Assembly: GCF_013046825.1 (NCBI RefSeq) | Contig: NZ_CP053187.1 | Coordinates: 2,328,001 to 2,392,000 of the forward strand | Length of the DNA stretch: 64,000 bases | Reading direction: 5' to 3' | DNA from: Turicibacter sanguinis | GTDB lineage: Bacteria; Bacillota_I; Bacilli_A; MOL361; Turicibacteraceae | Part shown: positions 1,534 to 56,725 of the stretch, one piece after another | Layout of the letters: each line of letters starts with the position of its first letter | Position numbering within the stretch: position 1 is the first letter of the stretch | The notes under the pieces: generated by a model | The model's input: only the letters and a program-made list of their open reading frames with translations | What the model was told of the DNA's origin: nothing | The model's database searches: none | Made by a program: the position numbers and the translations under genes

Positions 1534-2721
1534 TTATTTAGCGTGATTTTTTAGCCACATGATAGCACAATAGGTATGCATCGCGGCTCCAGTCGCTAAG
1601 ATGTCTTCATTAAACACGACTTTTTCATTATGCATCGGTTCTCCATATGAAGGATCTTCTTGTTTTGTTCCAGCACCAAGCATCATATAAACACTTGGAA
1701 CTTCGTATGAATAAGAGGCGAAATCCTCCGATCCCATACCGCCACCTTCAAATAAGACTACAGCTTGTTCACCAACTAAGTCTTTGACATAAGTCGTGAC
1801 TTCTTTTGCTAAGTCTGTATCATTGGCTAATGGTGGAACTGAAGATAATTCAATAAGTTCTGCTTCTCCTCTAAACATTTTAGCAGTTGAGGTCACAATT
1901 TCGTTCATACGGTTAAAAATGAATTCACCGAGTTCTTTATTCAAACTTCTAATCGTTCCTTCCATGATCACTTCTCCTGGAATGATATTAGGAGCGTCTC
2001 CACCGGCAAATTTTCCGATGGTTAGAACAGCAGGTTGTGTTGGTGATACTTCACGAGCAATAATTTCTTGCAAAGAAATGTAAATATGAGCTGCAATATT
2101 AATCGGATCGACTCCAAGTTCAGGCATGGCTCCATGGCATCCTGTTCCTTTAACTACAATTCTAAAGCGATTGCATCCTGCAATACTTGTTCCAAGCCCA
2201 CATAAGACAACGTTTGAAGGAGAACCTGAGTGAACATGCATCGCCATGGCGGCATCAACCTTTGGATTTTCAAGGACTCCCGCTTCAAGCATTTTTTTAG
2301 CTCCTGTAAATCCTTCCTCATCTGGTTGGAACACTAGTTTAATTGTTCCTTCGATTTGATTTTGATTTTGTTTAAGTAATTTAGCAGCTCCAAGTAACAT
2401 TGCGGTGTGCATATCATGTCCACAAGAATGCATGCATCCATTTGTCGATTTAAAATCGCAACTTGTTTCTTCTTTCATAGGAAGTGCATCCATATCTGCT
2501 CGTAATAAGAAGGTTTTTCCTGGATTTGGTCCTGAAATTGTGGCAACAATTCCGCTCTCACAAATCTCTGTCGGTTCGTAACCAAACTCCATCAGTTTAT
2601 TCATGACAAACGCTTTTGTTTTTGGAAGTTCGGCACCTACTTCAGGATTTTCATGAATAAATCGTCTATATTCTATCAGTTCATCTTTTATTAATTGTGC
2701 TTGATTCATAAATTCATTCAT
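1534..2721 (-). CDS. M20D-family amidohydrolase (N-acyl-amino-acid/hippurate hydrolase type)
   Basis: 395 aa, full family length. Dinuclear metal ligands are visible: HSCGHDMH (C100, H102), the catalytic acid cluster FQPDEEG (D134-E136) and MHVHSG (H162, H164), plus a late PMHNEKV histidine. This is the M20D signature of enzymes that release amino acids or aromatic acids from N-acyl conjugates in the cytosol. GGAGGA lies 7 nt before the chosen ATG; a second ATG four codons in is less well placed. It heads a two-gene unit with the WYL-type regulator. The specific substrate (hippurate, N-acetyl amino acid or peptidoglycan-derived) cannot be told from sequence. Confidence 0.9.
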   Translation of the reverse strand: MNEFMNQAQLIKDELIEYRRFIHENPEVGAELPKTKAFVMNKLMEFGYEPTEICESGIVATISGPNPGKTFLLRADMDALPMKEETSCDFKSTNGCMHSCGHDMHTAMLLGAAKLLKQNQNQIEGTIKLVFQPDEEGFTGAKKMLEAGVLENPKVDAAMAMHVHSGSPSNVVLCGLGTSIAGCNRFRIVVKGTGCHGAMPELGVDPINIAAHIYISLQEIIAREVSPTQPAVLTIGKFAGGDAPNIIPGEVIMEGTIRSLNKELGEFIFNRMNEIVTSTAKMFRGEAELIELSSVPPLANDTDLAKEVTTYVKDLVGEQAVVLFEGGGMGSEDFASYSYEVPSVYMMLGAGTKQEDPSYGEPMHNEKVVFNEDILATGAAMHTYCAIMWLKNHAK

Positions 2722-2740
2722 TTAAGATTCCTCCAAGTTA

Positions 2741-2793
2741 GTTTATGTTTTATGTAAACAAATCATATCAAAAAAATAGGACATATAGGGTCC
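2741..2793 (-). promoter_or_regulatory. Inverted repeats upstream of amidohydrolase gene
   Basis: Just upstream of the ribosome site sits GTTTA-N9-TAAAC (2741-2759), and 20 bp further GGAC-N7-GTCC (2779-2793). Both are symmetric in an otherwise AT-rich leader and could be operators. No clear -35/-10 pair was found. Confidence 0.3.
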
Positions 2794-2832
2794 AATTCAA
2801 AATTATTTTTACCAATTTTTAAAAAAATATAA

Positions 2833-2865
2833 AAAAGATTAATTAAAAAAATAAATTAATCTTTT
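2833..2865 (-). terminator. Intrinsic terminator of SLC13-like permease
   Basis: 12-bp stem (arms 2833-2844 and 2854-2865, AAAAGATTAATT) with a 9-nt loop. It is followed on the minus strand by a U-rich tract. Confidence 0.65.
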
Positions 2866-2879
2866 CATTTAATATAGAA

Positions 2880-3977
2880 TTATAAGGATATTAAGAATAA
2901 TAGGGTCAGGATGAAGAGTAGAGACACATTATATAACGTAAATACTTTTAAATATTTTGCCGTTTGATTCGGATAGGTTTGAGCAAATAATTTATATGAA
3001 ATGACGCTAGCTAGTGAGGCAATTAGGGTTCCAAGTCCACCGATATTGACTCCGATGAGGAGTGATTTTGCATAAGGTGTGAAAGTTGAGAGTAAGATAG
3101 CGGCCGGTACATTACTAATGATTTGTGAGGAAAGAATCCCTGCCAAATAAGTTTTTGGCTCAGTTTGAAGCATTGCTTGCATCCAGTGTGTTAATGCAGG
3201 AATAGAAGAGATATTCCCGATAAAAACAAAGAAAGCAATAAAGGTTATGAGTAGTGCGTAATCTACCTTTTTGAATAGGGAACGGTCTGAAATTAGGACG
3301 AATAAAAGAGTCAAAATGAACGTCCATTCTACTTTTATGAGATGAAACACGGACATTAAAATGATGCCAAGTAAAAAAGAATAGGCTAATACCTTTTTAG
3401 GTTGTTCGATGTTTGTGCAAGATAATTCAGCTTGCAGAGGTTCTTTTTTATCCCTTAACACAATAACAAGTAGTAAGGCAAAGGACATAAGCCCGAGTGG
3501 AAAGGTTATTTTTAAAAATTCACTCGGTGATAAATGGTAATAAGAATATAAGTATAAGTTTTGTGGGTTTCCAATCGGGGTGAGGCTACTTCCGAGGTTT
3601 GCGGCGAGCGTTAATAAAACGATGAGTTTAATCGCGTCGAGGTGTGTTGATTTGACTAAGATGAGCGCTAACGGCACAAAGGTAATTAAGGCAACATCAT
3701 TTGTAATGATCATGGCCATGAAGAAGGTTAATAACATTAATCCAAGGGTCAGTTGTTTCGTATTTTGACAACGACTTAAGATGAGTGTTGAAATTTTGTC
3801 TAAGACATTGAGTTTTTTAAAAGCAGCGACGACAATCATCAAGTTAAAAAGTAACATTAAAACATTAAAATCGATATGTGAGGTGTGTAAACCTGTAAAA
3901 AAAGAGGATAGTAGTGCTAAACAGGAAGCAATCACGAGTACGATTTCTTTTTTAATCCAATTCTTTAGTGTATTCAA
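2880..3977 (-). CDS. SLC13/ArsB-like anion permease
   Basis: Polytopic membrane protein of about 365 aa with roughly 10-11 hydrophobic segments. The hallmark ITNDVALITFVPLALIL, followed by the LGSSLTPIGNPQN hairpin, and in the C-terminal half SNVPAAILLSTF, match the two inverted repeats of the YbiR/SLC13/ArsB superfamily of anion or dicarboxylate transporters. The frame stays open to a TTG at 3992, but that TTG overlaps a GGAGGG ribosome site. The TTG at 3977, 7 nt after the site, is the better start and gives MNTLKNWIKKE. It is monocistronic with its own terminator. The substrate is unknown. Confidence 0.82.
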   Translation of the reverse strand: MNTLKNWIKKEIVLVIASCLALLSSFFTGLHTSHIDFNVLMLLFNLMIVVAAFKKLNVLDKISTLILSRCQNTKQLTLGLMLLTFFMAMIITNDVALITFVPLALILVKSTHLDAIKLIVLLTLAANLGSSLTPIGNPQNLYLYSYYHLSPSEFLKITFPLGLMSFALLLVIVLRDKKEPLQAELSCTNIEQPKKVLAYSFLLGIILMSVFHLIKVEWTFILTLLFVLISDRSLFKKVDYALLITFIAFFVFIGNISSIPALTHWMQAMLQTEPKTYLAGILSSQIISNVPAAILLSTFTPYAKSLLIGVNIGGLGTLIASLASVISYKLFAQTYPNQTAKYLKVFTLYNVSLLFILTLLFLISL

Positions 3978-3992
3978 AATTATTCCCTCCAA

Positions 3993-4304
3993 ATTCTTTC
4001 AAACCTTAATTATACCATAATTAGCATTAACTGTTATAAGGCAATAGGTCTTAGATTTTCATTTTGTAACAGATAAATAAATTTTCAAGGAAAAATCCTT
4101 ACGGTCGGATCAGTTACGGATGAAAAAAGTTTTTTTAAGGTCACGCTAAAAGGATTGAAAAGACACAAGGAAAAGTTAAGTCAGACTTCTTAGATAAGAG
4201 GATTTTAAGTGCTACAACTATCTTAAATTAATTTAACCATTGACGATATTTTATGATAAACTAAATAAAGTGAACGAATTTACAATGAATACTGGAGTGT
4301 AAAA
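3993..4304 (+). other. Intergenic region with promoter for small conserved gene
   Basis: No coding frame of merit. A TTGACG at 4240-4245, 16 nt from TAAATA at 4262-4267, is a plausible sigma-A promoter for the gene at 4305. A 16-bp string at 4128-4143 (AGTTTTTTTAAGGTCA) is identical to part of the left end of the IS3 element at 6.4 kb and may be a solitary end remnant. Confidence 0.45.
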
Positions 4305-4607
4305 ATGACAGCATTAGAGAAAAAACTACAACAGGAAGTCATCAAAAACTGTGAAGTAGCAGAAAAAGAGTATGACTGCAAAATGACAAGATTTCTCCAA
4401 ACCATTGAACGATTTGGAATTGTGAGAACTGCACAAGAAATTTTAAGAAAAGGCAGAACATCAGACTGTTTTAATCAGTTAGCTGAAGCGGGACGCCTTG
4501 ATTTAACGATGGAGGCCACAATTATTAAAAGTGAATATTCTGAGTTATTCACGGATGAAGAAGTTAATGATTGTTATGCTTTATTATGTGAAAGGGGATA
4601 TTACTAA
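4305..4607 (+). CDS. Small conserved protein, unknown function
   Basis: 100 aa, soluble and helical. The central pattern RFLQTIERFGIVRTAQEIL...GRLDLTMEATII...LFTDEEVNDCYALL resembles a segment that I know as a recurring C-terminal module in bacterial proteins of many architectures (TIERFG-x-x-x-A...GRLDLSMEALVL...LFTDEEL). Here it stands alone. GGAGTG precedes the ATG and a strong terminator follows. I cannot assign a function. Confidence 0.75.
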   Translation: MTALEKKLQQEVIKNCEVAEKEYDCKMTRFLQTIERFGIVRTAQEILRKGRTSDCFNQLAEAGRLDLTMEATIIKSEYSELFTDEEVNDCYALLCERGYY

Positions 4608-10482: not shown

Positions 10483-12589
10483 AATAGTATCAATGGTGAG
10501 TGCGAGTGCACTTATTATGAGTTCAACTCAAATTGGGGTATTGGCAAGTGTAAATATTCCAAAAGAAGAAGTCGTTTATATTAATTTAAACCAGAGCGGT
10601 AATGTTGAAAATATCTATGTCGTGAATGTATTTAATTCAGAAAGTAGAGGTCGTATCGTCGATTACGGACCTTATACCAGTGTTAGTAATTTAACGACAA
10701 CAGCTCCCATTACGTTAGCACAAGATAAAATTACGATTGATGATGTGAATGGACGTTTTTATTATCAAGGAGATTTGGAAACGACAGACATTCCTTGGTT
10801 ATTGAACATTAGTTATTATTTAAATGGTAAAAAAGTAGATGCTAATGAACTTGCAGGGGCAAATGGAGAAATCACAGTGAAATTAAGTGTGAAAGAAAAT
10901 ACAAAAGTCGATTCAGTTTTCTTTGAAAATTTTGCTCTTCAAACCACGATTGCATTTGATTCAACTTATACAACGCTTGTTAAGTCTGAGGGAGCAACCG
11001 TTGCCAATGTAGGAAGTAAAAAACAATTAGTCTATACCATGATGGCTGGAAATGAAAAAGAAATTGAGTTTACAGTGAATTCAACAGACTTTAGTATGGA
11101 TGGCATTCAAATTAATGGGATTCCATTAAATTTGAATATTGATAATCCAGACACAAGTGAGTTTACCGATCGTTTACTTGAACTTCAAGATGGAGTGGTA
11201 AAACTTGACGACGGTGCAACAGAACTGAAAGACGGAAGCTTTGATTTAAAAGATGGCACAGCAACATTAAAAGATGGGGTGAATACGTTAAAAGATGGTG
11301 CGACGTCTTTAAGTAAGGGAATGAATGAATTAGCGGCTGGAAGTTCTAGTCTTTACTCAGGGATTCAAACGTTAAAGGATGGGACTTCAAGACTACAAAA
11401 TGGATCTTTAGAATTAGCGACTGGGCTTGATACCTTGGTGAGTCAAAATTCTATGTTAACAGAAGGATCTCAAGCTGTGGTGAATGGAATTCATCAATTA
11501 CAAGAAGGAGCAGGAGCTTTATTAAGTGGAGTCGATCAATTCATTTTAGAGAGTGGGCAGATGGGAAATAGTCTATCACAGCTTCAAAATGGATCAGAAT
11601 CATTTAAAGGAGGACTTAATGATTTAGCAAGTAGTAGTCAGTCACTTGTCAATAGCTCAAATGAAATTGCAGCAGGGATTTCTCAAAGCGCAGGGGCTTT
11701 ACAACAACTTGCCGCATCATCACAATCAGAAGAAATGCAGGGATTACTAGCCGCGCTTAGTAGTAGTCAAGACACAAATGTTCAGGCACTAGTTTATGCT
11801 TATCAACAACAAGCAGGAATAATTGGCCAAATTTCTGCTGGAATGGACGGATTAAATGCCAATTATGGTGCATTTAATGAAGGGGTGAATCAAGTTGTTG
11901 GTGGAATTGGTTCTTTAAATGCGAATTATGATAGCATTCATTCTGGGATTGTAACATTAGTCTCTGGTGTATCAGGAATGCTCTCTTCAACAGGACCAAT
12001 GGCGACACTTCGCGAAGGAGTGCAGACATTAAATAATGGAGTCGCACAGTTAGCCACAGAGTACCAGATACTTCATCAAGGAATTTTAGCCTATACTGAT
12101 GGTGTGTCACAAGTAGGCGAAGGGGCTAAATCATTGGTAACAGGAGTGAATGGGTTAGCAAGTGGAACAACTAGTTTATCAGATGGAGCCAATACCTTAA
12201 AAGATGGCGTGAATCAACTACAAAGTGGAACAACAGAGCTTCAAAATGGAACGACTGAACTGTATAATGGAACGGTAAGTCTTGCTGATGGAGTGAACCA
12301 ACTAGTCGATGGAACAATTGAACTTTCAGATGGAACAGGACAAATGAGAGAAGAAACAACTGGAATTGATCAAGAAGTCAGTGATAAAGTGGATGAAATG
12401 ATTTCAGATATAATAGGTGGCGACTTTGAAATGAAATCTTTTGTGTCTGATAAAAATACGGAGGTTGAATCCGTTCAGTTTGTGATGAAAACAAATGCAA
12501 TCGCAAAAGATATAACCGTTGAAGTCCCTGTTGTCGAAGAAACTTCTCTTAATTTTTGGCAAAAACTTTTACACTTATTTGGATTTTAA
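10463..12589 (+). CDS. Secreted YhgE-like protein with L-x-x-G repeat coiled coil
   Basis: About 708 aa from the ATG at 10463, which follows GGAGGAG; an upstream TTG-type opening at 10436 lies inside the previous gene. Signal peptide: residues 1-28 (KIVSMVSASALIMSSTQIGV). Residues 30-225 form a predicted beta-rich domain. From about 230 to 640 run dozens of 7-11 residue repeats of the L-KDG-T/A-x-x-L type (ELKDGSFDLKDGTATLKDG), as in YhgE/Pip and phage-infection-protein ectodomains. No permease helices follow; the protein ends in NFWQKLLHLFGF. Overlap with the MMPL gene suggests an extracellular partner of that transporter. Role inferred. Confidence 0.75.
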   Translation: MKSSMPKIVSMVSASALIMSSTQIGVLASVNIPKEEVVYINLNQSGNVENIYVVNVFNSESRGRIVDYGPYTSVSNLTTTAPITLAQDKITIDDVNGRFYYQGDLETTDIPWLLNISYYLNGKKVDANELAGANGEITVKLSVKENTKVDSVFFENFALQTTIAFDSTYTTLVKSEGATVANVGSKKQLVYTMMAGNEKEIEFTVNSTDFSMDGIQINGIPLNLNIDNPDTSEFTDRLLELQDGVVKLDDGATELKDGSFDLKDGTATLKDGVNTLKDGATSLSKGMNELAAGSSSLYSGIQTLKDGTSRLQNGSLELATGLDTLVSQNSMLTEGSQAVVNGIHQLQEGAGALLSGVDQFILESGQMGNSLSQLQNGSESFKGGLNDLASSSQSLVNSSNEIAAGISQSAGALQQLAASSQSEEMQGLLAALSSSQDTNVQALVYAYQQQAGIIGQISAGMDGLNANYGAFNEGVNQVVGGIGSLNANYDSIHSGIVTLVSGVSGMLSSTGPMATLREGVQTLNNGVAQLATEYQILHQGILAYTDGVSQVGEGAKSLVTGVNGLASGTTSLSDGANTLKDGVNQLQSGTTELQNGTTELYNGTVSLADGVNQLVDGTIELSDGTGQMREETTGIDQEVSDKVDEMISDIIGGDFEMKSFVSDKNTEVESVQFVMKTNAIAKDITVEVPVVEETSLNFWQKLLHLFGF

Positions 12590-20009: not shown

Positions 20010-20054
20010 TTAGACAAATATTCGCGTTGAAAAGGAATAGTAAAGACTTCCCTT

Positions 20055-20266
20055 TTTTGTAGAGAGAGAATGGTTGGTGAAAATTCTCAAAAAGGTGTCT
20101 TGAACCAGCCTTGGAGCCCTGTACCGAAAACTTGAAGTAGGCTACAGCGATTCATCTCGTTATCGATGAAAAAGATGTGATCATAGTGCCATGGAATATG
20201 ATCATAATTAGGGTGGTACCGCCGATTTTGGCCCCTTGCAGAGGGAGCAAATCGGTGGTTTTTTTG
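20055..20266 (+). promoter_or_regulatory. T-box riboswitch controlling proS
   Basis: Stem I features (AGAGAGAATGGTTGGTGAAA, a specifier-loop region near CCCTGTACCGAAAA) are followed by the diagnostic T-box AGGGTGGTACCGC at about 20209-20221. An intrinsic terminator follows: CCGATTT/AAATCGG arms at 20222-20228 and 20249-20255 with the T-run GGTTTTTTT. Uncharged tRNA-Pro would pair with the T-box bulge, stabilise the antiterminator and let proS be transcribed. The specifier codon (CCN) could not be fixed with certainty by eye. Confidence 0.92.
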
Positions 20267-54345: not shown

Positions 54346-55128
54346 TTGAAAGTGATGACATTTAATTTACGTTCTGATTCTATTTTTGATGGGAAAAATA
54401 GATGGCATAAACGTAATCACATTGTATTTGATGTAATAAAAAAGTATAACTGCGATATCATTGGTTTGCAAGAAGTGACCAATAAAATGTATAAAGATAT
54501 AGAAGAACAATTAAGTGATTATTATATCATTGGACAGCCACGATGCAAACGTTTCTTTGTGGAGCATAATAACATATTAATATCAAAACGACATGAAATT
54601 TTAGAAGAAGAGACCTTTTGGTTATCGAATCAACCTAAAAAAGTAGGGAGCTCGATTTGGTATTCAGTGTTTCCACGAATTTGTACAACAGCCAAAGTTA
54701 GACTAGATAGTGGGGAGTTGGTTCGCATTTACAACACGCATTTAGATGTTTATTTATCTCCCGCCCGCGGATATGGATTAAAAAAAATTAGTGAATACAT
54801 CGAAAGACAGCAAGAGATAGATCAAATTCCAGTAGTTTTAATGGGGGATTTTAATGCAACCCCCAATCATCGTATCATTAAGACTTTTACTGAAGGTGAA
54901 TTGAGTCATAAACGATTTGTTGCTGTTCAAGAGTATGATAAGTCGATTTATAATAAACCAACGATGGGGCGATTTAAAGATTCTGAAAAAGGGATGCATT
55001 TAGATTATATTTTCGTGTCAGAGGAATGTGCTGTATTACATGCTGAAATTATTAAGGATAATGTCAATGGACAATATCCATCAGATCATTATCCATTATT
55101 AGCTCATGTTCATGTTACACTTTCTTGA
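54346..55128 (+). CDS. Endonuclease/exonuclease/phosphatase (EEP) family protein
   Basis: 260 aa from TTG 54346, 9 nt after GGAGG. EEP catalytic motifs: MTFNLRSDS, DIIGLQEVT, YNTHLDVYL, VLMGDFNATP, HLDYIFVS and the terminal PSDHYPLLAHV. Fold shared with sphingomyelinases, DNase I and inositol phosphatases. No signal peptide, so intracellular. An extended -10 TGG-TATAAT lies at 54261-54269. The substrate cannot be told. Confidence 0.9.
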   Translation: MKVMTFNLRSDSIFDGKNRWHKRNHIVFDVIKKYNCDIIGLQEVTNKMYKDIEEQLSDYYIIGQPRCKRFFVEHNNILISKRHEILEEETFWLSNQPKKVGSSIWYSVFPRICTTAKVRLDSGELVRIYNTHLDVYLSPARGYGLKKISEYIERQQEIDQIPVVLMGDFNATPNHRIIKTFTEGELSHKRFVAVQEYDKSIYNKPTMGRFKDSEKGMHLDYIFVSEECAVLHAEIIKDNVNGQYPSDHYPLLAHVHVTLS

Positions 55129-55190
55129 AAAAAATTTTTTCGACATAAAAAAGACACAAATCGACATTAAAAATATGTGATAATGAATAT

Positions 55191-55329
55191 GTCTTGAAAA
55201 ATAAGACACTACCCTAATTTAATTGTTATGAAGTTCCCCCAAAATACTTCATAACATATTCTCTCTTTTCATCCCAATATTTATAAATCATCCCCTGTTT
55301 TTGAGGTTCCTTGTGAACCTCCTTTTTTT
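55191..55329 (+). ncRNA. Tandem small RNA, copy 1 of 3 (UCCC-motif sRNA candidate)
   Basis: Predicted transcript of about 139 nt. Extended -10 TGT-GATAAT (55176-55184); the start is placed 7 nt on. (1) 5' hairpin GTCTTG/TAAGAC (55191-55196, 55202-55207): the G-C closing pair of copies 2 and 3 is a G-U here, so pairing is kept. (2) Unpaired ACTACCCTAATT. (3) Hairpin GTTATGAAGT/ACTTCATAAC (55225-55234, 55246-55255) with an 11-nt loop exposing TCCCCC. (4) Pyrimidine-rich linker with CATCCC and CATCCCC. (5) Terminator GAGGTTC/GAACCTC (55303-55309, 55315-55321) and T7. No coding frame. The exposed UCCC motifs could pair with ribosome sites. Family not recognised. Confidence 0.82.
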
Positions 55330-55509
55330 GTTTTTTACAAGAAATAAACTGAAAAATTTTAAAAACTGATGGCTAAATTAAACACGTCTTGGAAAGATAA
55401 AAATAAAGTCTAATAAGTATTTTTTAAAATTCGACAAAAAACTCCAAATAGTAACAAAAGAACACAAAAAAGACACGTTTTTAGAAGATTAATATGCGAT
55501 AATGAGTAT

Positions 55510-55649
55510 GTCTTGAAGAACAAGACACTACCCTAATTTAATTGTTATGAAGTTCCCCCAAAATACTTCATAACATATTCTCTCTTTTCATCCCAATATT
55601 TATAAATCATCCCCTGTTTTAGGAGGTTCCTTGTGAACCTCCTTTTTAT
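55510..55649 (+). ncRNA. Tandem small RNA, copy 2 of 3
   Basis: Own promoter TGC-GATAAT (55495-55503). 5' hairpin GTCTTG-AAGAA-CAAGAC, C-loop hairpin arms 55544-55553 and 55565-55574, CATCCC and CATCCCC linker. The terminator has a longer 9-bp stem AGGAGGTTC/GAACCTCCT (55621-55629, 55635-55643). The body is nearly identical to copy 3. The DNA between copies 1 and 2 (about 180 bp) is dissimilar apart from an A-rich block before each promoter. Confidence 0.82.
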
Positions 55650-55932
55650 TTTGTTTTAGATCATGAATCAATACAATTGAAGAGGGCTTGCTGAGCCGAA
55701 GGATGCGAAATTGTGTTGTTGAATGCTAGGTATCGTCTGATAGCGAGTGACGAAATTAACTGATAGTGATATTCATTTATTAAGAAACTTTTAAAAAATC
55801 GCTGGAAAAGTGTTCTGATGGGCTTGTTTATTTCCTAAAATAAAATCTGAATACAGTCAAAAATCGTCAAAAAACTTCAAAAAAACACAGAAAGAACACA
55901 AAAATGACGTTTGAATATGTGATAATGAATAT

Positions 55933-56071
55933 GTCTTGAAGAACAAGACACTACCCTAATTTAATTGTTATGAAGTTCCCCCAAATACTTCATAACATAT
56001 TCTCTCTTTTCATCCCAATATTTATAAATCATCCCCTGTTTTATGAGGTTCCTTGTGAACCTCCTTTTTTT
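55933..56071 (+). ncRNA. Tandem small RNA, copy 3 of 3
   Basis: Own promoter TGT-GATAAT (55918-55926). Same order of parts: 5' hairpin (55933-55949), C-loop hairpin (55967-55976, 55987-55996; loop one A shorter, stem unchanged), UCCC linker, terminator (56045-56051, 56057-56063) and T7. It ends about 58 nt before the preQ1 aptamer of the que operon. The 284-bp spacer before it contains no gene; a GC-richer patch at 55680-55760 was not identified. Confidence 0.82.
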
Positions 56072-56128
56072 ATTTTTTATTTATTGTAAATTTAAGGTTT
56101 TTATGTTATAAATAGTATATTCAAATAA

Positions 56129-56170
56129 AGACAGTTCATTCAGACCATCCTGTCTCTAAACAAAACTAGG
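56129..56170 (+). promoter_or_regulatory. preQ1-I riboswitch aptamer
   Basis: P1 stem AGACAG (56129-56134) / CTGTCT (56150-56155) with the loop TTCATTCAGACCATC. An A-rich tail CTAAACAAAACTAGG follows, the part that folds back as a pseudoknot in type-I preQ1 aptamers (compare UUAACAAAACAAGG of the Thermoanaerobacter element). Location directly upstream of queD-queE-folE-queC-queF, whose product pathway makes preQ1, fits exactly. Confidence 0.85.
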
Positions 56171-56191
56171 CTCAAATAGAATGATGATATT

Positions 56192-56214
56192 GGGCGCTTT
56201 TGCGCCCTTTTTTT
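56192..56214 (+). terminator. Riboswitch-linked terminator
   Basis: GGGCGC-TTTT-GCGCCC followed by T7, 22 nt after the aptamer; the probable expression platform in the preQ1-bound state. Confidence 0.85.
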
Positions 56215-56227
56215 CTGTAAAAATCAG

Positions 56228-56278
56228 AAAGCTTCCTTTTATGTGCCGAGTTTTGCGCAAGAAGGAAGCTTTTTTTTA
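56228..56278 (+). terminator. Second leader terminator before queD
   Basis: AAAGCTTCCTT (56228-56238) / AAGGAAGCTTT (56262-56272) with a 23-nt loop and a T-run, 19 bp before the queD ATG. A second hairpin-plus-U-run between the riboswitch and the first gene is unusual. Confidence 0.7.
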
Positions 56279-56296
56279 TTGTTGAGGAGAGATTAT

Positions 56297-56725
56297 ATGT
56301 TTACTTTAAAAAGTGAAATTGAATTTGATGCAGCACATTACTTAAGTGATTATGAAGGGAAATGTCACAATATTCATGGGCATCGGTACCGAGTTGTCAT
56401 CAAAGTGTCGGCAGACTCACTGCATGAAACGGGACAATGTCGTGGGATGGTGGATGATTTTTCAACTATCAAGCAAGCCTTAAAGAAAATTCATGATTTA
56501 TTTGATCACCGATTAATTCTTGAAGAGAATGAAGAGGGAAAAGAGCTTGCTAAAAAAATAGCAGAGACAAAGCTAGGCTTTGAAATATATTTTGTTCCAT
56601 ATCGTCCAACAGCAGAGGAAATGTCGCGTGATATTTATCAGAGATTACAAAATCTAGGAATAAAGGTAACCGAAGTAGAGTTATTTGAAACGCCTAAAAA
56701 TAGTTGTATTTATACGGAGGTTTAA
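56297..56725 (+). CDS. queD: 6-Carboxy-5,6,7,8-tetrahydropterin synthase
   Basis: 142 aa from ATG 56297 (GAGGAGAG upstream); the frame extends back through the terminator but not plausibly as protein. Zinc ligands H14 (FDAAHYL), H27 and H29 (HNIHGHRY), catalytic C23. Converts dihydroneopterin triphosphate to CPH4 in queuosine precursor synthesis. First gene of the que operon under the preQ1 riboswitch. Confidence 0.93.
   Translation: MFTLKSEIEFDAAHYLSDYEGKCHNIHGHRYRVVIKVSADSLHETGQCRGMVDDFSTIKQALKKIHDLFDHRLILEENEEGKELAKKIAETKLGFEIYFVPYRPTAEEMSRDIYQRLQNLGIKVTEVELFETPKNSCIYTEV

Follow-up and report, generated by a model that had tools for sequence, protein, structure and literature searches.

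Three small RNA (sRNA) genes of approximately 140 nt each, arranged head to tail in Turicibacter sanguinis, constitute, as judged by comparative evidence, a real and new sRNA family of an already known kind of working. We consider it probable (roughly 65%) that they belong to a regulator-controlled set of C-rich antisense sRNAs that would block translation initiation. Three tandem sRNA genes had been proposed in an initial annotation of the window, i.e., the whole 64,000-nt stretch of DNA analyzed here. This observation is confirmed, and its interpretation as regulatory RNAs is supported as far as sequence goes. Gene anatomy, structure, conservation, and the promoter box were read from the nucleotide sequences of the copies and their homologues.

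Anatomy and Genomic Context of the Tandem sRNA Genes

The three copies follow each other with start-to-start distances of 319 and 423 nt in the complete source genome of 3.0 Mb and can be aligned almost without gaps across the transcript (Table 1). As claimed initially, the bodies are near-identical (95-97% identity to copy 2 in BLASTN), whereas the spacers of about 179 and 283 nt are dissimilar to each other. In each copy, an extended -10 element is followed by a 5' hairpin and by another hairpin (hairpin 2), the loop of which is C5; a long C-rich stretch that is unpaired then leads to the terminator. The extended -10 element TGN-GATAAT was recovered for all three copies, with the -10 at 55179-55184, 55498-55503, and 55921-55926, and the first stem begins 6 nt after the -10. 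Likewise, every copy possesses its own terminator, consisting of a GAGGTTC/GAACCTC hairpin and a T-run. Terminator-like sites are more frequent in the region (6) than in shuffled sequences (0.6), and 3 of these 6 sites are the terminators of the sRNA copies.

The array is flanked by an endonuclease/exonuclease/phosphatase-type gene (54346-55128) on one side and a queD-type gene on the other, both names being our assignments from reading the translations. It is intergenic and situated upstream of the queD-type gene, which starts at about 56298 (likely ATG) and opens a queuosine operon. The leader of this operon (56120-56220 of the window) contains GACAGTTCATTCAGACCATCCTGTCTCTAAACAAAACTAGG followed by a terminator-like hairpin and is near-identical in two other species; by eye it resembles a preQ1-I riboswitch, and a permissive Rfam search reported none. 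Elsewhere in the window, a T-box leader (RF00230, 135.7 bits) is located at 20018-20239.

Table 1. Predicted features of the three tandem sRNA genes; positions refer to the window.
Copy	Feature	Start	End	Strand	Remarks
1	11-bp direct repeat GACAT-N6-GACAC, putative response-regulator box	55142	55157	+	
1	Extended -10 TGT-GATAAT	55176	55184	+	
1	Predicted small RNA	55190	55329	+	Ends estimated from -10 and T-run
1	Hairpin 2 with C5 loop	55224	55256	+	
1	Intrinsic terminator	55303	55329	+	
2	11-bp direct repeat AACAC-N6-GACAC, putative response-regulator box	55461	55476	+	
2	Extended -10 TGC-GATAAT	55495	55503	+	
2	Predicted small RNA	55509	55648	+	
2	5' hairpin	55509	55527	+	
2	Hairpin 2 with C5 loop	55543	55575	+	Compensatory changes among homologues
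2	Unpaired CTCTCTTTTCATCCCAATA	55580	55598	+	Identical in sister genus
2	Unpaired CATCCCC, candidate anti-SD/anti-AUG motif	55608	55614	+	Putative function
2	Intrinsic terminator	55621	55648	+	
3	11-bp direct repeat AACAC-N6-AACAC, putative response-regulator box	55884	55899	+	
3	Extended -10 TGT-GATAAT	55918	55926	+	
3	Predicted small RNA	55932	56071	+	
3	Hairpin 2 with C5 loop	55966	55997	+	
3	Intrinsic terminator	56045	56071	+	

Secondary Structure and Unpaired C-Rich Stretches

Folding of copies 1, 2, and 3 resulted in z-scores of -5.2, -6.0, and -5.8, respectively, relative to dinucleotide shuffles, with none of 200 shuffles being as good. Differences between the copies had been described as respecting the structure. 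For the 5' stem, alignment and folding verified a G-U pair in copy 1 and G-C in copies 2 and 3, and length changes are indeed situated in the loop of hairpin 2 and just before the terminator. Stem preservation extends to the homologues, in which the 5' hairpin and hairpin 2 are kept paired by compensatory changes. Standard pairs occupy 99.5% of the alignment cells, and 4 pairs change on both sides (10 cells), as counted in a model-fitted alignment that is biased towards structure. None of 500 shuffles reaches the covariation score of the homologues, and shifting the pairing partners by one column reduces pairing to a third. For hairpin 2, the compensatory changes TACGAAGTT/AACTTCGTA, TATGAAGTT/AACTTCATA, and TATAAAGTT/AACTTTATA are visible by eye.

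Four C-rich unpaired motifs, which were not part of the earlier reading, were recognized in the tandem RNA, where unpaired G is nearly absent; the unpaired part before the terminator comprises 20-21 C and 1-2 G in the three copies of the window. Most copies, as well as the homologue of the sister genus, share an unchanged unpaired CTCTCTTTTCATCCCAATA, and CATCCC or CATCCCC is located 3' of it. Being conserved and predicted to be unpaired, CAUCCC and CAUCCCC represent candidate anti-Shine-Dalgarno (anti-SD)/anti-AUG sequences. The hairpin loops keep C tracts although loop length varies. The terminator loop is not C-rich.

Distribution and Copy Number

Based on BLASTN and a covariance model built from 18 copies, the gene was identified in all 5 Turicibacter genomes examined and in one genome of a sister genus. 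No match was obtained in 389 other genomes of the class, searched with strict filters by which weak matches are lost. Copy numbers in the Turicibacter genomes are 3, 3, 3, 7, and, for an assembly that is broken at the array, at least 3; the sister genus contains a single copy. For some species, the copies of one genome are identical or nearly so, while sequences differ between species, which points to recent duplication or concerted evolution. Some copies of the species with 7 copies (2585-4435 of the extracted locus) are visibly diverged, and a carboxypeptidase-type gene takes the place of the queuosine operon downstream of the array. Further copies were found neither elsewhere in the source genome nor in the plasmids or phages searched. 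The exact 19-mer occurs in 2 Turicibacter records and 5 scattered unrelated organisms of the genome collection, which is near chance expectation.

Promoter Box and a Second C-Rich RNA

The TG of the extended -10 element is present in 19 of 19 homologous promoters. Nearly all of them contain a direct repeat, RACAC-N6-RACAC, which ends 20-21 nt before the -10 and is absent from the initial annotation. Outside the array, the best genome match to box and -10 is located at 10530-10571. It belongs to a putative second RNA gene of approximately 200 nt with the same promoter layout (about 10530-10795 of the genome, outside the window), which likewise had not been noticed before. This RNA is otherwise unrelated to the tandem RNA and is composed of a hairpin with a loop of 7 or 8 C, the unpaired TTTCATTATTGTTTTTCATTCC...ACATCCCCTCATC, a central hairpin, TTCCCC, and a terminator with a C6 loop. 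It occurs in 5 of 5 Turicibacter genomes and, as recognized by its promoter, in the sister genus; next to it, ssb- and M16-peptidase-type genes are situated in both the source genome and the sister-genus genome. Double changes that keep the pairing were observed for 12 of the 35 predicted pairs (six sequences). That a second C-rich RNA is preceded by the same unusual promoter points to joint control of these regulatory RNAs as one set.

Considering both RNA families, 22 of 25 promoters have a pair of RACA motifs with a period of exactly 11 bp and an unchanged distance to the -10; the promoters are not independent cases due to shared descent within each of the two otherwise unrelated families. 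The box is degenerate in 3 of the 25. Shuffled sequences contain a mean of 0.12 and never more than 2 RACA pairs with this period, and other periods give 0-2. In six genomes, the combined pattern of box and -10 has 13 matches, of which 10 belong to the two RNA families; the reversed pattern has no match. Direct repeats at 11 bp are bound by the OmpR-type regulator CiaR (TTTAAG-N5-TTTAAG; PMC3091779), and, judged by its period, the repeat described here is probably bound by a response regulator of the OmpR/PhoB type. The source genome encodes 18 OmpR-type DNA-binding domains; no convincing box was observed near its OmpR-type regulator genes. A site similar to the sRNA box and its spacing, AACACAAAAAGAACAT-N21-TATAGT, is located on the minus strand near position 884880 of the genome, just upstream of a spoVG-type gene, possibly by chance.

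Comparison with Known sRNA Families

In agreement with the initial annotation, which recognized no named family, no Rfam family matches the tandem RNA at gathering or permissive thresholds. Membership in the LhrC family was rejected, as neither a sequence nor a covariance-model match was obtained at either threshold. The same applies to the csRNAs, with no Rfam match to a named sRNA family, and to RsaE/RoxS (RF01820), to which the tandem RNA gave no match. The CiaR box TTTAAG-N5-TTTAAG is absent from 54900-56300. Weak matches only were obtained for the second RNA in Rfam. One of them, between its terminator region and RsaE/RoxS, remains below threshold, with 32.9 bits against a gathering score of 79; it covers two neighboring terminators and probably arose by chance. 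No description of a Turicibacter sRNA was found in the literature searched.

The proposed likeness to LhrC and the csRNAs holds as an analogy (multiple copies, own promoters, C-rich anti-SD motifs, and a probable response-regulator box) and fails as homology. LhrC is induced by cell-envelope stress in a LisR-dependent manner. LhrC1-5 of Listeria monocytogenes are G-poor and contain redundant CU-rich motifs. Three UCCC-containing sites are distributed over a loop, a stretch without pairing, and the terminator loop, and each site is able to bind a target at its SD region (PMC4132741). Similarly, the Turicibacter RNA occurs in several near-identical copies (3 here, 3-7 in relatives), the tandem RNA is G-poor with redundant C-rich motifs in a loop and unpaired stretches, and two-component control of the set is predicted from the box. 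In contrast to LhrC, the tandem RNA has an additional 5' hairpin and lacks a C-rich terminator loop, which is present in the second RNA.

The csRNAs of streptococci are multicopy and CiaR-dependent, with a response-regulator direct repeat of 11-bp period; the unpaired sequence that separates their hairpins includes anti-SD and anti-AUG (CAU) elements, and related RNA types share the regulator (PMC3091779, PMC8186281); CAU beside a C-rich SD-binding motif was proposed to act as anti-AUG (PMC3091779). Multiple copies, the 11-bp direct repeat, and the unpaired anti-SD/anti-AUG sequence are found in the Turicibacter RNAs as well, with pairing being predicted here. However, their box is RACAC-N6-RACAC and is located 20-21 nt before the -10, compared to 10 nt for the CiaR box. 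Among the sRNAs of Firmicutes, RsaE/RoxS also is C-rich and pairs with SD regions, as proposed for the Turicibacter RNAs. Binding of the SD by UCCC motifs is well established for sRNAs of low-GC bacteria (PMC4132741). LhrC and the csRNAs are nearest by way of working, and a relationship by descent is not claimed.

Proposed Mechanism and Alternative Explanations

Transcription, the regulator and its class, activation, and pairing with mRNAs are those parts of the following model that we infer. The three units would be genes for one multicopy trans-acting sRNA of approximately 140 nt that is restricted to Turicibacter and the sister genus; transcription of each copy would start from a separate extended -10 promoter and stop at a separate terminator. 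An OmpR/PhoB-type response regulator probably binds RACAC-N6-RACAC at the site expected for a -35 element, approximately 20 nt before the -10, and would activate all copies together with the second C-rich RNA near 10,530. These G-poor RNAs would expose C-rich motifs in loops and unpaired stretches, and pairing of these motifs with G-rich SD/AUG regions would block translation of target mRNAs. Several copies with several motifs each may provide dose and redundancy. More tentatively, one might envisage a regulon mainly of RNA, in which a single response regulator has its box chiefly before C-rich sRNA genes and the redundant C-tract loops jointly either slow down translation initiation on a broad scale or titrate a protein.

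Pairing of the C-rich segments with the genes of the window was predicted to be stronger for start regions (-12.5 kcal/mol) than for coding regions (-7.8 kcal/mol). Shuffled segments of the same composition pair as well with start regions, and this preference therefore gives no indication of specific pairing. Complement patterns are more common in the source genome than reversed controls (82 vs 29 and 112 vs 39), an excess that can be explained by composition. Complement searches revealed no conserved start-site target among the loci inspected.

With regard to control, the main rival explanation assigns the promoters to Spo0A or another sporulation-linked regulator and the RNAs to the entry into sporulation or stationary phase. 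It draws on TTGTCGAA, which we take to be a Spo0A box: in each of the 5 Turicibacter genomes, the promoter of the second RNA carries this element in the interval that separates the 11-bp repeat from the -10. It also draws on TTCGACA or close variants upstream of many tandem copies. However, the RACAC repeat of 11-bp period, which nearly all promoters share, is without the CG core of the Spo0A box, and TTCGACA is missing or located at varying distance in many copies, which makes this assignment unlikely. The sister genus carries ATCGACA at the position of TTGTCGAA.

Concerning the mechanism, the main rival to mRNA pairing is a sponge, i.e., multicopy sRNAs that titrate an RNA-binding protein via repeated C-rich motifs. 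CsrB-type RNAs titrate protein through GGA loops, and comparable behavior would fit the finding that both RNAs, although otherwise unrelated, repeatedly contain C-tract loops and unpaired C-rich motifs, the C tracts held in loops of varying length, and the lack of a specific mRNA target in our searches. We regard a sponge as unlikely: the unpaired stretches remain unchanged across about 19 nt, which is much longer than a short protein motif requires, C-rich SD-binding motifs have precedent in low-GC bacterial sRNAs (PMC4132741), and no candidate protein is known. Far less probable, and already disfavored, is the assumption that the array represents leader or attenuator RNAs of the neighbors, small peptide genes, or a mobile repeat instead of independent regulatory RNAs. 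The position of the whole array in one intergenic region upstream of the queD-type gene would be in its favor, but no gene follows immediately after the terminators of copies 1 and 2, and the downstream gene is not the same between species. As stated in the initial annotation, no reading frame is conserved: none is open across the homologues, and an antisense ORF of 21 codons, present in copies 1 and 2, is disrupted in some of them by loss of the frame or the start. With no frame conserved on either strand, peptide coding was rejected. The restriction of all copies to the array, as observed for the source genome and the plasmids and phages searched, speaks against a mobile repeat.

Turicibacter is a common gut genus. 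Two RNA families behind one recognizable promoter box would offer a direct handle on a signaling pathway together with its RNA output, and they apparently add an independent example to the multicopy C-rich sRNAs of Listeria and streptococci.
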